Below are positions 7,017 through 12,992 of a DNA stretch of 64,000 nucleotides, one piece after another; position 1 is the first letter of the stretch; each line of letters opens with the position of its first letter. The notes below the pieces were generated by a model. The model had not been told where the DNA came from. It saw only the letters and a program-made list of their open reading frames with translations, and did not search any database. The DNA is from Roseivivax sp. GX 12232 (lineage in GTDB: Bacteria; Pseudomonadota; Alphaproteobacteria; Rhodobacterales; Rhodobacteraceae): contig NZ_JAJSEC010000002.1 of the NCBI RefSeq assembly GCF_021272185.1, positions 248,001 to 312,000 on the forward strand. The letters are read 5' to 3'. Made by a program: the position numbers and the translations under genes.

Positions 7017-8222
7017 TCACCTCTGCTTCGGGGCCGCCCCGCGCATCACCCGGACCGTCACGCCCAGCGCCAGCAGGCAGGCCAGGCCCACGCCCGCGTA
7101 AACCCCCAGGATCGCGGAGATTTCCGGCTGGCTCATCCGGTCGACCCCGCCGGTCCCGAACGAGGCCACCCAGAGCGAGGCCGCGAAGATCAGCCGCCCG
7201 ACCAGCGCCTGGATCGACAGGTAGGTGGCCCGCGCCTCGCCCTTGAGCCGCGGCTGGATCGCCGCCAGGAGGAAGGGCCGCGAGAAGGCATCGGGCACCA
7301 TCCGCAGGGCCAGCGCCAGGATCGCCAGCGCCGAGGCGCTGAGCGCCAGTACCGCGACCAGCGCCACCTGCATGGCAAAAGCCAGGACCAGCATGGGTCC
7401 GAGCCCGATCCGCGCCCGCAGCCCCGGCGCCGCCAGCGAGGCCAGAAGCGAGACCGCCATCATCACCGCCGTGATCCCGCCCGAGACCAGCGGCGCATCG
7501 GCGGCTAGGCCCAAGGGCTCCAGCGCCTCGAGGATGAAGGGCTGGCCGAAGATGAAGGGCAGGTGGCTGAAGCCATACATCAGCACCGCCAGCGCGAAGA
7601 GCCAGAGCAGCACCCGGTCGCGCAGCGCCTGGCCCAGGGCGCCCAGCTGCGAGAGCTGCACCTCGCCCGAGCTGCGGATGCGCTGCGGCTCGGTGAAGGA
7701 CAGCGCCAGTCCCAGCGCCACCGCCGAGGAGAGCGCCGAGAGCCAGAACGGCAGGGGCAGGCTCCAGAGCGCCGCGGCCCCGCCCAGGGGCGCCGCCACC
7801 AGGAGGGCGGCGAAGGAGAAGCGCCAGGCGCGCAGCTCCTCGGCCTCGATGCGCTCGGTCTCGCCGGTCTCGGCGAGGCTCTCATAGAGAAACGCGCTGT
7901 CGGTGCCCGAGGTGAAGGCCATGCCCGCGCCCAGAAGCGCCTGGCCCAGCGCGAAGACCCAGAAGGCCCCGCCAAGCGCCAGGAGCACCGAGCCCGCCAC
8001 CAGCGCAAGCGCCGAAGCGATCAGCGTCACCCGCCGCCCGAGCCGGTCGGACATGGCGCCCGAGGGCACTTCGACCAGCGTGCTCGAGAGGTCATAGACC
8101 GCGTAAAGCAGGATCGCCTGCGCCGGGGTCAGCGCCTCCTGGAAATACAGAAACCAGGTCGCCTGCCAGAACAGCAGGTTCTGGGCGGCGCGAAACCAGG
8201 GATAGCGCGCGACATTGCCCAT
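7017..8222 (-). CDS. Major facilitator superfamily transporter, last gene of the ggp operon
   Basis: Inner-membrane secondary transporter, 401 aa with about 12 hydrophobic spans. The MFS motif A between TM2 and TM3 is seen as GAMSDRLGRRVTL, and the second half repeats the pattern with more degenerate loops. No substrate-specific motif was recognised. The start is only 16 bp after the ggpS stop on the same strand, so it is very likely co-transcribed with gpsA-phosphatase-ggpS. That placement suggests, as inference only, movement of the osmolyte or a related sugar or polyol. An unrelated drug/metabolite efflux role is equally possible on sequence alone. Confidence 0.85.
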   Translation of the reverse strand: MGNVARYPWFRAAQNLLFWQATWFLYFQEALTPAQAILLYAVYDLSSTLVEVPSGAMSDRLGRRVTLIASALALVAGSVLLALGGAFWVFALGQALLGAGMAFTSGTDSAFLYESLAETGETERIEAEELRAWRFSFAALLVAAPLGGAAALWSLPLPFWLSALSSAVALGLALSFTEPQRIRSSGEVQLSQLGALGQALRDRVLLWLFALAVLMYGFSHLPFIFGQPFILEALEPLGLAADAPLVSGGITAVMMAVSLLASLAAPGLRARIGLGPMLVLAFAMQVALVAVLALSASALAILALALRMVPDAFSRPFLLAAIQPRLKGEARATYLSIQALVGRLIFAASLWVASFGTGGVDRMSQPEISAILGVYAGVGLACLLALGVTVRVMRGAAPKQR

Positions 8223-8238
8223 GGCCCCTCGCGGCGGC

Positions 8239-9729
8239 TCAGCCCTCCGCCGCGAAATCCTCGGGCGAGAGCAGCGCGAGCTGATCCTGCGCCCAGCGGG
8301 CGGTGTTGTAGGTCCAGACCTTGCGGCGCGCTTCGGTCATGCGGCTCTTGCGGTTCTCGGCGCTCATGTTCAGCGCCGTCTCGATGGCGTGGTCCATGTT
8401 CTTGTTGCTGTAGGGATTGGTCAGGATCGCCGAGCCCAGCTCGATCGCGGCCCCGGCAAACTCCGACAGGACCAGCACCCCGTCCTCGTCGTCGCGGGCG
8501 GCGGCGAACTCCTTGCAGACCAGGTTCATCCCGTCGGCGAGCGGCGTGATCCAGGCCACGTCCGCGGCGCGGTAATAGGCGACCAGCTCCTCGAAGGGGA
8601 TGGCGCGCGAGATCAGCGCCACCGGCGTCGAGGTGAAGGTGCCGAAGCGCCCGTTGATGCGGCCCGCGATCTGTTCGATCTCCTGCTGGATATCGGCATA
8701 GACCTTCATGTTGCGGTTGGCCGAGACCGAGACATGCAGAAGCCGCGTGGTGCCGCGCAGGTGCTCGTGTTTCTCCAGGAGCCGCTCGTAGGTCAGAAGC
8801 TGCTCGGCCCCGCCCTTGGTGTAATCGGTGCGCCCGACCGACAGGATCAGCCGGTCGCCGCCCAGCTCCTCCTTGATGGCCTTGGCGCGGGCCTTGGTCT
8901 CGTCGGACTTGGTGACCCGGGCGATGTAATCGGTGTCGACGCCGACCGGCGTGACGCCCAGCTTGACCGCGCGGTCCTCGGTCTGGATCTGCACCGGCTG
9001 GGTGCGGTCCGAGAGCGCCGAGCCCTCGGAGATGAAATCCTCCGAGACCTTCACCCGCGGCACCTCGCCCACGTCGCGCAGCGAGCGCACCACCGAGACG
9101 AAGTTCGAGGCGTAACGCGGGATGTGGAAGCCCACCACGTCGCAGGCCAGGAGCGAGTCGATGATCTCGCCGCGCCAGGGCAGCACGTTGAAGATGTCCG
9201 CCGCCGGGAAGGGCGTGTGGTGGAAGAAGGAGATGCGCAGGTCGGGGCGCATCTTGCGCAGGTAGCCCGGCACCAGCCAGAGGTTGTAGTCATGCACCCA
9301 GATCGCGGCGTTCTTGGCGGCCTCGGCGGCGGCGGCCTCGGCAAAGGCCTGGTTCACCTTGCGGAAGGTGCCCCAGTCCACCGGGTCGTAGTTATACTTC
9401 TCCTTGAAGCCGTGCAGGATCGGCCAGAAGGCCTCCTTCGAGGTGACATGGTAGAAGCTCGAGACGTCCGAGGCGGTCAGCGGCAGCCGCGAGACGGTGT
9501 ATTTGCCGAAGCTGTCCTCGATCTGGACGACGCGCTCGAAGCCCGGGTCGGTGACGTCCTCGGCCTCTTTCCAGGCCACCCAGGCGGCGTTCTCGACGCG
9601 GCCGAAGAAGCTTTTCAGCGTCGGCACGATGCCGTTGGGGCTCTTGTTCTCCTTGAAGACGGTTTTGCCGTTCTCGACCACCTCCTCGTAGGGTTGGCGG
9701 TGATAGACGATGACCAGATCGCTTCCCAT
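8239..9729 (-). CDS. ggpS: Glucosylglycerol-phosphate synthase
   Basis: GT20-family glycosyltransferase, 496 aa, expected to join glucose from ADP-glucose (the donor of known GgpS enzymes) to glycerol 3-phosphate, giving glucosylglycerol phosphate. From memory of cyanobacterial GgpS, the N-terminus is strikingly close to it: [20 protein letters not shown] followed by [14 protein letters not shown]. Later landmarks are [64 protein letters not shown] and [20 protein letters not shown]. This N-terminus differs from trehalose-6-phosphate synthase (OtsA), the nearest relative. Its neighbours, a G3P-forming dehydrogenase and a HAD phosphatase in the same operon, supply the substrate and the next step. 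The start abuts the upstream stop (TGAATG). Confidence 0.9.
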
Positions 9730-10506
9730 TCAGACGCCCTCCGGGACAGGATGGAGTTCAAGTGCGGCGACGGCCTCGAGGATGCCGCCCGCGCCCACGG
9801 CTTCGGCCTTGTGCACATGCGGCAGATGCGCCACCCGTTCGAGCAGCGCCGCCTCGGACCCGCCGACGGCCACGGCGGGCAGGCCGCATTCCAGCATCGA
9901 GGCATCGTTGAGCGTGTCGCCCGCCGCCAAGACCCGGGCCGCGTCCAGCGCCATGGCGCTGGCGAAGCGTTGGAGCGAGGGGCCTTTCGAGACCCCGGCG
10001 GGCAGCACGTCGAAATAGCGGTTGTCCGAGATCAGCCAGTCGAGGCCCAGCGCCTCGACGCGCGCCTTGGCGCTGTCATCGAAGGTCTCGGGGTCGAGGT
10101 CGTAGCTCACCCGGTGGCGGAAGCCCGTGGGCTGCAGCCTCAGCCCCGGGTGACCGTCGAGCGTGGCGCGCACCCGCTCGCCGGCGTCGCCCCAAGCGGC
10201 GGTGATCTCGGTTTCGAGCTCGGGGATCGGGGTAATCTCGCGGCCCTCGACCTTCGCGATGGTCGTGCCGACGTCGCCGATCACATATTCCGGCCAGGGC
10301 ACGCCGCCGTCGCAAAGCTCGACGATGAACCCCGGGTCGCGGCCGGTGACGAAGACCAGGCCGATGGTCTCGCGGTGGGCCTCGATCCAGTCGTAGAGCC
10401 GGCGCCGGTCGGCCTGGCTGCCGCCCAGGAAGGTGCCGTCGAGATCGGTCGCCAGCACGAAGCGGCGCGCGTCGAGCGGGGTGGTGATCGCGGGCCTCTG
10501 GCTCAT
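9730..10506 (-). CDS. HAD-family phosphatase, probable glucosylglycerol-phosphate phosphatase
   Basis: 258-aa HAD hydrolase of the Cof/sucrose-phosphatase type. Motif I is VLATDLDGTFLGG (nucleophile Asp and acid/base Asp), motif II is FVTGRDPG, the C-terminal Lys is in AGVSKGPSLQRF, and motif III/IV is LAAGDTLNDASML. It resembles the phosphatase part of fused glucosylglycerol-phosphate phosphatase/synthase proteins known in some gammaproteobacteria; here it is a separate gene. Its start overlaps the gpsA stop by 4 bp and its stop directly precedes the ggpS start, so the three are translationally coupled. Removal of phosphate from glucosylglycerol phosphate is inferred from this context; the sequence alone shows only a sugar-phosphate-type HAD enzyme. 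Confidence 0.85.
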   Translation of the reverse strand: MSQRPAITTPLDARRFVLATDLDGTFLGGSQADRRRLYDWIEAHRETIGLVFVTGRDPGFIVELCDGGVPWPEYVIGDVGTTIAKVEGREITPIPELETEITAAWGDAGERVRATLDGHPGLRLQPTGFRHRVSYDLDPETFDDSAKARVEALGLDWLISDNRYFDVLPAGVSKGPSLQRFASAMALDAARVLAAGDTLNDASMLECGLPAVAVGGSEAALLERVAHLPHVHKAEAVGAGGILEAVAALELHPVPEGV

Positions 10507-11642
10507 TGGGCGGGATCCCTTCTTGCCTTGGGGTGGACCAGTTCGATCGAGAGCGCCCGCGGCTCGGATTCGAGCGGCCGGGCCCAGAGGTCGGTGAAGC
10601 TTTCGTCCAGCGCCGCGCCCTCGTGCAGGATCGCGTGCACCGTCTCGCAGATCGGCATATGCACCCCGATCCGCCGCGCCAGGTCCACGACCGAGATGGC
10701 GTTGACCTCGCCCTCGACCACGACCTTCTTGCCGTCGAAACACTCCGAGCGCGCCTTGCCCTGGCCGAGCTGCACGCCCAGCGACATGTTGCGCGAGGTG
10801 GTGGACGAGCAGGTCAGCGTCAGGTCGCCCGCGCCCGAAAGCCCGGTGATCGTCTCGCGGCGGCCGCCCAGCGCCTCGGCGAGGAACTTCATCTCGTCCA
10901 TGCCGCGGGCGATCAGCGCCGCGCGGGTGTTCTCGGCGAAACCCGCGCCGGTCATCATCCCGCAGGCGATGGCGATCACGTTCTTCACCGCGCCGCCGAT
11001 CTCCACGCCCACGAGGTCGTCCGAGATATAAGGCCGGAAGGCCGAGGAGGACATCGAGACCGAGAGCCGCGCGGCGGGGCTGTCCTCGGGGCGGAGTCGG
11101 TCGGTGTAGCGGAACTCGAAGGCGATGGTCGCGGCGGTCGGATGGCCCAGCACCGTCTCCTTGGCGAAGGTCGGGCCCGACAGCGCGCCGACCGGATGGC
11201 CCGGCAACTCTTCCTCGACCAGGTGGCTCAGGAGGTAGCCGGTGCCCTGTTCGATGCCCTTGCAACACAGCACCAGCGGCACGCCCTGGGGCAGATAGGG
11301 CCGCAGCTCGGCGCAGACCTTGCGCAACGTCCGCGAGGGGGTGACCAGCAGGACCGCCTCGCTGTGCTCGAGCGCGGCGGGCAGGTCGGTCAGGGCCAGG
11401 ATGCCCTCGGGCAGATGCGCGTCCGGCAGGTGGCGGGTGTTCACCCGGGTCTCGTTGATGTCGCGGGCAAGATCCGCGCGCCGGCCCCAGAGCCGCACCT
11501 CGCGGCCGGCGGAGGCGGCGACGGCGGCCAGGGCGGTGCCCCAGGCCCCCATGCCGATCACCGTGATCCGGTCGTAGGGGCGGGCCGATCTGCGGATGCG
11601 TCCGTCTGTGTCGCTGCGAAGGGTCAGGGTCTGTCCGTCCAT
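10503..11642 (-). CDS. gpsA: NAD(P)-dependent glycerol-3-phosphate dehydrogenase
   Basis: Reduces dihydroxyacetone phosphate to sn-glycerol 3-phosphate, here probably as the acceptor for GgpS as well as a possible lipid precursor. 379 aa. The Rossmann start is ITVIGMGAWGTALAAVAASA near residue 26; other motifs are VLCCKGIEQGTG, GALSGPTFAKE (family motif), the catalytic Lys region GGAVKNVIAIACGM, and GLSGAGDLTLTCSS. The ~24 residues before the Rossmann strand and ~40 extra C-terminal residues make it longer than the typical ~330 aa. It is first in the gpsA-phosphatase-ggpS-MFS operon and divergent from galU. A second, housekeeping gpsA may exist elsewhere; this copy may be dedicated to osmolyte synthesis (inference). 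Confidence 0.92.
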   Translation of the reverse strand: MDGQTLTLRSDTDGRIRRSARPYDRITVIGMGAWGTALAAVAASAGREVRLWGRRADLARDINETRVNTRHLPDAHLPEGILALTDLPAALEHSEAVLLVTPSRTLRKVCAELRPYLPQGVPLVLCCKGIEQGTGYLLSHLVEEELPGHPVGALSGPTFAKETVLGHPTAATIAFEFRYTDRLRPEDSPAARLSVSMSSSAFRPYISDDLVGVEIGGAVKNVIAIACGMMTGAGFAENTRAALIARGMDEMKFLAEALGGRRETITGLSGAGDLTLTCSSTTSRNMSLGVQLGQGKARSECFDGKKVVVEGEVNAISVVDLARRIGVHMPICETVHAILHEGAALDESFTDLWARPLESEPRALSIELVHPKARRDPAQ

Positions 11643-11861
11643 GCTCGGGGCCTGGGGCCTCTGGTTGTTTGCGTTGATCCTGCGGGCCGCGAAGGGCCGC
11701 GCCTAGGAAAAAGGCTAGGGGGTGCGGCGGAATCGTCCAGACCGCGGGCCCCGATCCGGGCCGGGCAGGGGCCCGGGCGCCGCTCTGCCCCTTCTTTAGG
11801 CAATTTTTCGCGGCCACGCACAGGAATTCAGCGGCGGGCTGCCGATTTCGAAGGGTGAGCC

Positions 11862-11894
11862 GCCGCATTGCAGCGAAACGGCGCGAAATGCGGC
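11862..11894. repeat. Inverted repeat, candidate operator
   Basis: Perfect 8-bp arms GCCGCATT (11862-11869) and AATGCGGC (11887-11894) separated by 17 bp. It lies about 220 bp from the gpsA start and about 190 bp from galU. Symmetry and position fit a regulator binding site; no known regulator motif was recognised. Confidence 0.4.
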
Positions 11895-11998
11895 AGGTCT
11901 CGGCCCGAATGGACCTGGGGCCGATGACGCGAAATCAAGGGGTTAGCCGACGTCACCCCGGGCCCGCCGGGCACTCGAGGGAACGGGGCGCGGCGCTT

Positions 11999-12026
11999 TT
12001 GACTTAAGCTGAGGCATCCATACCCT
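11999..12026 (+). promoter_or_regulatory. Candidate galU promoter
   Basis: TTGACT (11999-12004), a 16-bp spacer, then TACCCT (12021-12026), 54 bp ahead of the galU ATG. The -35 box matches five of six consensus bases; the -10 box is weak, as is common in high-GC alphaproteobacteria. Confidence 0.45.
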
Positions 12027-12080
12027 TTTTCTCAGAAGGCCGGGCGCCGCCCGACCGCAGACCCGCAAGGAGCATTGAAC

Positions 12081-12992
12081 ATGGACCGCACGCCAACCGC
12101 CAGAGACCGCCGGGTCAGAACCGCGATCTTCCCCGTGGCGGGGCTCGGAACCCGCTTTCTTCCCGCCACCAAGGCGACGCCGAAGGAGCTCTTGCCGGTT
12201 CTCGACACGCCGCTGATCCAGTTCGCCATCGACGAGGCCCGCGAGGCCGGGATCGAGCGGATGATCTTCGTCAGCCACCCCTCGAAGGAGGCGATCGAGC
12301 GCTACGTGCGCGCCGATGCCGAGCTCGAGGCCACCCTGCGCGAGCGCGGCAAGGCGCGGCTGGCGGAGATGCTGCACGACAATGCCGTCGACGAGGACGC
12401 CATGCAGGTGCGCTTCGTCATGCAGCCCGAGCCGCTGGGCCTGGGCCACGCGGTGCTTTGCGCCCGCGACGAGGTGCTGCCGGGGCCGGTGGCGGTGGTG
12501 CTGCCCGACGACCTGATCCTAGGCGGCGAGGGCTGCCTGAAGGAGATGATCGACGCCTATGACCCCGCGCGGGCCGGCCATATGGTCGCCACCATGCAGG
12601 TCGGCGCCGAGGAGGTCTCTTCCTACGGCGTGCTCGATGCGACCGGCCGCGAAGGCGGGCTGATCCTCGCGCGCGGCATGGTCGAGAAACCGGCGCCCGA
12701 GGCGGCGCCCTCGCGCCAGGCGGTGGTCGGGCGCTACCTGCTCGACGCGAGCATCTTCGAGGCGCTGGACGGGCTGCCGCCGGGCGCGGGTGGAGAGATC
12801 CAGCTCACCGATGCCATCGCCGCGGGCGTCGAGACCGTGGGCCTCTGCGGCTTCCGCTTCTCGGGTGTGCGCTACGACTGCGGCTCGAAGGCGGGCATGC
12901 TGGCGGCGACCATGGCCTATGCGGGCGGGCAGGCGGCCTATGCCTCGGTCCTCGCCGCACCGCCGGGCGGTCTGACGACTGCGGCGGAGTGA
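12081..12992 (+). CDS. galU: UTP--glucose-1-phosphate uridylyltransferase
   Basis: Makes UDP-glucose from glucose 1-phosphate and UTP for envelope polysaccharide and glycolipid synthesis; cytoplasmic. 303 aa. Nucleotide-binding signature AIFPVAGLGTRFLPATKATPKELLP at the N-terminus (shown here in part as GLGTRFLPATKATPKE), VMQPEPLGLGHAV, LPDDLI, VEKP and GGEIQLTDAI all match GalU. The start at 12081 has AAGGAG with 8-nt spacing; a TTG two codons upstream sits too close to that site. The gene is single and followed by a strong terminator 135 bp later. UDP-glucose is not the known donor for GgpS, so the link to the divergent osmolyte operon is positional only. Confidence 0.96.
   Translation: MDRTPTARDRRVRTAIFPVAGLGTRFLPATKATPKELLPVLDTPLIQFAIDEAREAGIERMIFVSHPSKEAIERYVRADAELEATLRERGKARLAEMLHDNAVDEDAMQVRFVMQPEPLGLGHAVLCARDEVLPGPVAVVLPDDLILGGEGCLKEMIDAYDPARAGHMVATMQVGAEEVSSYGVLDATGREGGLILARGMVEKPAPEAAPSRQAVVGRYLLDASIFEALDGLPPGAGGEIQLTDAIAAGVETVGLCGFRFSGVRYDCGSKAGMLAATMAYAGGQAAYASVLAAPPGGLTTAAE

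Follow-up and report, generated by a model that had tools for sequence, protein, structure and literature searches.

The window analysed here, a stretch of 64,000 nucleotides from the genome of Roseivivax sp. GX 12232, carries a cassette for the osmolyte glucosylglycerol. It is likely that its gpsA was left as the sole copy after loss of the housekeeping gene and that the encoded enzyme probably has a dual supply function. Read directly from the sequences are the protein families, the order and number of the genes, the division of GpsA into two clades and the gap at the tsaD locus; the enzyme activities are predicted, the dual role in osmolyte and lipid synthesis is probable, and regulation by salt is putative.

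The glucosylglycerol pathway in the window is not new. Since the cassette is widespread and contains annotated ggpS genes, and since glucosylglycerol is cited as a solute of Dinoroseobacter shibae (Kleist 2017, as cited in PMC9062515), this part of the reading is both right and ordinary. The new point is evolutionary and concerns the apparent replacement of the housekeeping gpsA by the ggpS-linked copy; no report of it was found in the accessible part of the open-licence literature, which does not establish its absence from print.

Gene cassette and enzyme families

The window cassette consists of gpsA (10503..11642, 379 aa), an unfused HAD phosphatase gene (9730..10506, 258 aa) and ggpS (8239..9729, 496 aa), followed by an MFS gene (7017..8222, 401 aa, PF07690), all on the minus strand. 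The gpsA and HAD genes share an ATGA (4-bp overlap), the TGA of the HAD gene is followed immediately by the ATG of ggpS (TGAATG), and 16 bp separate the ggpS stop from the MFS start; the four-gene layout and junctions given in the original prediction are thus borne out by the sequence. ATGA occurs at the gpsA end in 89 of the 130 loci in which both gpsA and the HAD gene were found. A galU-like UTP-glucose-1-phosphate uridylyltransferase gene (12075..12992, plus strand) diverges from gpsA across an intergenic region (11643..12074), which was aligned with that of 10 relatives. Upstream of gpsA only short blocks, one TGG-like and the other CTA, with a spacing of about 16 bp, are loosely conserved between the window and these relatives; the window pair is TGGACG, 16 bp, TAGCCT at about 11712-11739. 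A plain sigma-70 consensus scan of the gpsA upstream region returned no promoter-like site; the blocks would be loosely compatible with one promoter directed towards gpsA.

The ggpS product, a member of glycosyltransferase family GT20, passes the equivalog cut-off of TIGR02398 (GgpS; 665 bits, cut-off 569), misses that of TIGR02400 (OtsA; 420 bits, cut-off 565) and is the one match to PF00982 in the window genome. GgpS, including fused GgpPS, and OtsA stand apart in the GT20 tree with support of 100/100, and the window protein groups with GgpS. The tree comprises 31 rows, 25 of them non-cyanobacterial GgpS out of 75 aligned sequences (window included in the 75) and six OtsA from E. coli and plasmid records; two long rows, one OtsA and that of genome G396, were flagged. 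The column of E. coli OtsA Arg301 (Met1 counted), which we take to be a glucose-6-phosphate-binding residue of the acceptor site, holds Arg in 6/6 OtsA and in 0/75 GgpS, where Asn (65), Asp (3), Ala (6) or Ser (1) is found (Asn338 in the window). The closest named GgpS relatives among the best matches belong to Roseivivax spp. (91% to R. halotolerans).

Trehalose-6-phosphate synthesis, with the GT20 enzyme as OtsA and the HAD enzyme as an OtsB-like phosphatase, would agree with a Pfam family that is common to GgpS and OtsA, with about 26-35% identity to trehalose-synthase-type matches on plasmids and with OtsA structures as the best solved-structure relatives of the GT20 protein. This alternative is nevertheless extremely improbable in view of the model scores on opposite sides of the two cut-offs, the separate clade, the lost acceptor-site Arg and the linkage of gpsA to the GT20 gene. 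An OtsA identity was rejected on cut-offs, clade and acceptor-site residue, and the same three lines, the tree among them as a check proposed beforehand, uphold the predicted assignment of the window GT20 enzyme, which by its sequence is classified as a glucosylglycerol-phosphate synthase (GgpS) and not as OtsA.

The HAD protein matches sucrose-phosphatase-type models (HAD-IIB, PF05116) and is the predicted glucosylglycerol-phosphate phosphatase. Family models for cyanobacterial GgpP presumably exist; the window HAD protein matched none of them and hit only S6PP and other HAD models at E<=0.001. It shares 38-44% identity with the N-terminal part of five GgpPS-like open frames of 761-828 aa (L259, L260, L261, L263, L264; one with an internal stop) from outside the window's class, and on this similarity it is assigned as the counterpart of the phosphatase domain of fused GgpPS. 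Such phosphatase-synthase fusions are published for Pseudomonas, Marinobacter and Stenotrophomonas (PMC10873239). They contain a homologous phosphatase and synthase in the order found in the window, where however two separate genes are present and preceded by gpsA; none of the five fused-gene loci showed an adjoining gpsA match, one of them (L261) beginning at the fused gene. The unfused phosphatase of the original prediction is thus confirmed as a separate HAD gene beside ggpS.

Among the 394 family genomes, 67 have GgpS above cut-off, as do 12 of a set of 398 genomes drawn across the phylum. The order gpsA-HAD-ggpS on one strand is kept in 58 of the 66 other family loci and in 72 of 80 named loci (best matches only, overlapping with the sampled family genomes), and is thus conserved beyond chance. 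Hoeflea is among the named loci with the cassette; outside the family it also occurs in G409 and G425, genomes that represent two further families of the class. Plasmid pDSHI02 of D. shibae carries the same cassette with an annotated ggpS, a 4-bp gpsA-HAD overlap and 65% GgpS identity; it differs in the plasmid location and in the absence of the MFS gene, and D. shibae (G035) keeps a second, tsaD-linked gpsA. An annotated glucosylglycerol-phosphate synthase is also listed for the alphaproteobacterium Paraoceanicella profunda (PMC7002103). With GgpS and GgpP of Synechocystis the window shares the GgpS family, G3P as acceptor and two separate enzymes, whereas its phosphatase fits SPP-like HAD-IIB models instead of GgpP and its genes form a compact coupled operon. 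A review figure (PMC6753628) depicts the neighbourhood of ggpS in several cyanobacteria, and its legend names glpD, glpK and gpsA among the genes shown there. The gpsA-HAD-ggpS cassette is a widely shared alphaproteobacterial module with its own GpsA class, and the proposal that acceptor supply, synthesis and dephosphorylation are united in one alphaproteobacterial unit finds its support in this conserved three-gene order.

The glucosyl donor may be considered together with galU. As glgC was found above cut-off in the window genome, ADP-glucose should be available there; glgC was likewise found above cut-off in 50 other GgpS genomes, whereas 15 of the 67 GgpS genomes, D. shibae (G035) included, had no glgC match at E<=1e-50. 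The galU-like product reaches 276 bits with TIGR01099, under the cut-off of 326.8. galU lies near ggpS in 21 of the 66 other family loci, divergently in 20, and in G256 on the same strand downstream of the cassette; its repeated retention there may bear on the sugar donor. The proximity of galU and the genomes without a glgC match are what favours UDP-glucose, supplied via the divergent galU, over ADP-glucose, an alternative that we consider possible but doubtful. galU is a common housekeeping gene, and glgC is present in the window genome and 50 others. Because galU adjoins the cassette in only 3 of the 15 glgC-less genomes, the linkage was rejected as strong evidence for UDP-glucose. The Synechocystis pathway is moreover described as strictly ADP-glucose dependent (PMC8168540).

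The MFS gene adjoins ggpS in 2 of the 67 family GgpS genomes, those of the window (G000) and of G357. Within the genus, a search at the DNA level, in which a diverged MFS gene could be missed, adds G777, so that 3 of the 9 genomes have this arrangement. Homologues at E<=1e-40 were present in 10 of the 67 GgpS genomes; in 8 of the 65 genomes lacking a ggpS-adjacent MFS gene, a 52-57% homologue is encoded at another position. No MFS gene adjoins ggpS in any of the 80 named loci (best matches), four Roseivivax species included. A four-gene unit, composed of a dedicated gpsA, the two central genes and an MFS protein that exports or imports glucosylglycerol, could be suspected from the short ggpS-MFS gap and from the same position of the gene in G357 and G777. 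It is improbable given the 65 family genomes and the 6/9 genus genomes without an MFS match beside ggpS, and given that the operon gpsA is the sole copy found. The survey of the four-gene order, suggested with the original prediction, thus holds for gpsA-HAD-ggpS and fails for the MFS gene. Conserved MFS-ggpS linkage, as expected of a glucosylglycerol transporter, was not found, and membership of the MFS protein in the pathway was rejected; the gene is a local, lineage-specific neighbour and no conserved part of the cassette.

Copy number and classes of GpsA

Window GpsA, a predicted NAD(P)H-dependent glycerol-3-phosphate dehydrogenase, contains the N- and C-terminal NAD_Gly3P_dh domains (PF01210/PF07479), scores 370 bits with NF000942 (cut-off 257) and belongs to the ggpS-linked class. 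The operon gpsA is the single PF07479 match in the window genome, in which no separate housekeeping gpsA was found and the tsaD locus is without gpsA. All 9 genomes of the genus have one gpsA each, adjoining ggpS by coordinates. As no other gpsA was found in the genome, the window gene is no dedicated extra copy, and the description of its product as a 'dedicated' G3P dehydrogenase is not supported for this genome.

Two gpsA genes are present in 39 of the 67 GgpS genomes, in which the operon gene is the second copy, and at least two in 2 of the 327 family genomes without GgpS (Fisher 3e-33); the latter were assessed by PF07479 count only, with the GpsA clade checked in four. The 28 single-copy GgpS genomes comprise 20 with the linked gene only, seven with an unlinked gene only and the undecided G233, which was left out of the 20 because of a contig edge, a linked-type gpsA on another contig and a missing tsaD match. 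The 20 linked-only genomes are 98-100% complete and represent 19 genera. In 26 of the 394 family genomes (14 of 347 of good quality), all lacking GgpS, no match to gpsA was obtained; some of these are 97-99% complete. G047 and G049, both without GgpS, have four and two gpsA matches.

HAD-ggpS pairs without linked gpsA were observed at L043, L057, L065, L066, L068 and L171 (genomes G002, G251, G037, G303, G179 and G272), where the tsaD-linked gpsA is kept, the opposite state; in G303 the unlinked gpsA lies about 8 kb from ggpS. The ggpS of G196 (L063; genome 64% complete) contains one internal TAG, has no adjoining HAD or gpsA match and is perhaps a decayed copy.

In a quick tree 50 tsaD-type or unlinked GpsA rows are separated from 75 linked rows (including three shorter duplicates L182, L186 and L187, nine named loci and G692) by one branch with SH-aLRT 100. 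Median identity is 39% between the classes and 64% and 56% within them. K220, D273, R284 and N285, which we assume to be catalytic, are nearly invariant in both.

The tsaD locus

A TsaD-GpsA-YciI-EVE operon is published for Alphaproteobacteria (PMC7641849), and a functional tie of GpsA to TsaD in it is a published idea. This operon is the site of the housekeeping gpsA in the window's relatives, whereas in the window genome it lacks gpsA, and tsaD is separated from the yciI match by 33 bp. With either window GpsA or tsaD-linked GpsA as query, no gpsA match was obtained at the tsaD locus in any of the 20 linked-only genomes. The tsaD-yciI gap is 12-86 bp in 15 of these 20 and not measurable in five because no yciI match is present; such a match is also absent from 16 of 50 gpsA-bearing loci. 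In 30 of the 32 measurable gpsA-bearing loci the distance is 945-1033 bp, the outliers being G226 (1672 bp) and G360 (618 bp, with a short tsaD match).

Because the tsaD locus is without gpsA, the gap is short and GpsA forms two clades, the tsaD-linked housekeeping gene has apparently been deleted, and repeatedly so. Loss and retention require 11 changes on the TsaD tree (11-12 in the bootstrap, at least six forced by starred branches) and 11 on the GgpS tree of linked genomes, counts which cannot alone distinguish loss from regain and, for TsaD, come with an unsettled bootstrap; the direction of loss is taken from the conserved tsaD-gpsA-yciI order. The TsaD tree has 68 rows, from 64 of the 67 GgpS genomes (all except G067, G222 and G233) and four genomes without GgpS. 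That the housekeeping gpsA is missing merely through assembly gaps might be suggested by the draft state of the genomes and by the 26 family genomes without any gpsA, but is very improbable, as all 20 tsaD loci are assembled and gpsA-less, 15 of them with the short tsaD-yciI gap, and all nine genomes of the genus agree in having one copy. Assembly gaps were rejected as the cause on account of these intact loci.

Glycerol 3-phosphate supply and implications

According to the proposed mechanism GpsA would reduce DHAP to G3P, GgpS would join G3P with glucose from a nucleotide sugar to glucosylglycerol phosphate, and the HAD enzyme would remove the phosphate to yield glucosylglycerol, a salt protectant. 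Most sampled hosts with a linked gpsA keep the tsaD-linked housekeeping gene alongside, while deletion in Roseivivax and other lineages has apparently left the operon copy. No other NAD(P)-G3P dehydrogenase was found in the window genome, where the operon GpsA probably feeds both osmolyte and phospholipid synthesis, and by the gene list it would be the sole de novo supply of G3P.

Glycerol is a possible other source of G3P, because glycerol kinase (glpK) is present in 19 of the 20 linked-only genomes, that of the window included. As 26 of the 394 family genomes are without gpsA, the gene is not indispensable everywhere; together with the glycerol kinase found in 6 of 9 checked gpsA-less genomes, this indicates that some species can obtain G3P elsewhere. 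The linked-only state is limited to 20 of the 67 GgpS genomes.

We consider it somewhat more probable than its opposite that a gene of an osmolyte operon has repeatedly displaced a housekeeping gene for a lipid precursor, in the genus and in up to about ten other lineages by parsimony, with G3P for membrane lipids then coming from a salt-stress operon through one shared enzyme and promoter. What was annotated as an osmolyte operon would thereby exemplify how a stress-operon paralogue repeatedly takes the place of a housekeeping gene, with a locus that can be compared before and after the event. The linked-only genomes, lacking a tsaD-linked GpsA, offer a natural test of the tie between GpsA and TsaD. 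If the interpretation is true, glucosylglycerol and phospholipid synthesis would compete for, and be regulated via, one enzyme in these marine bacteria.
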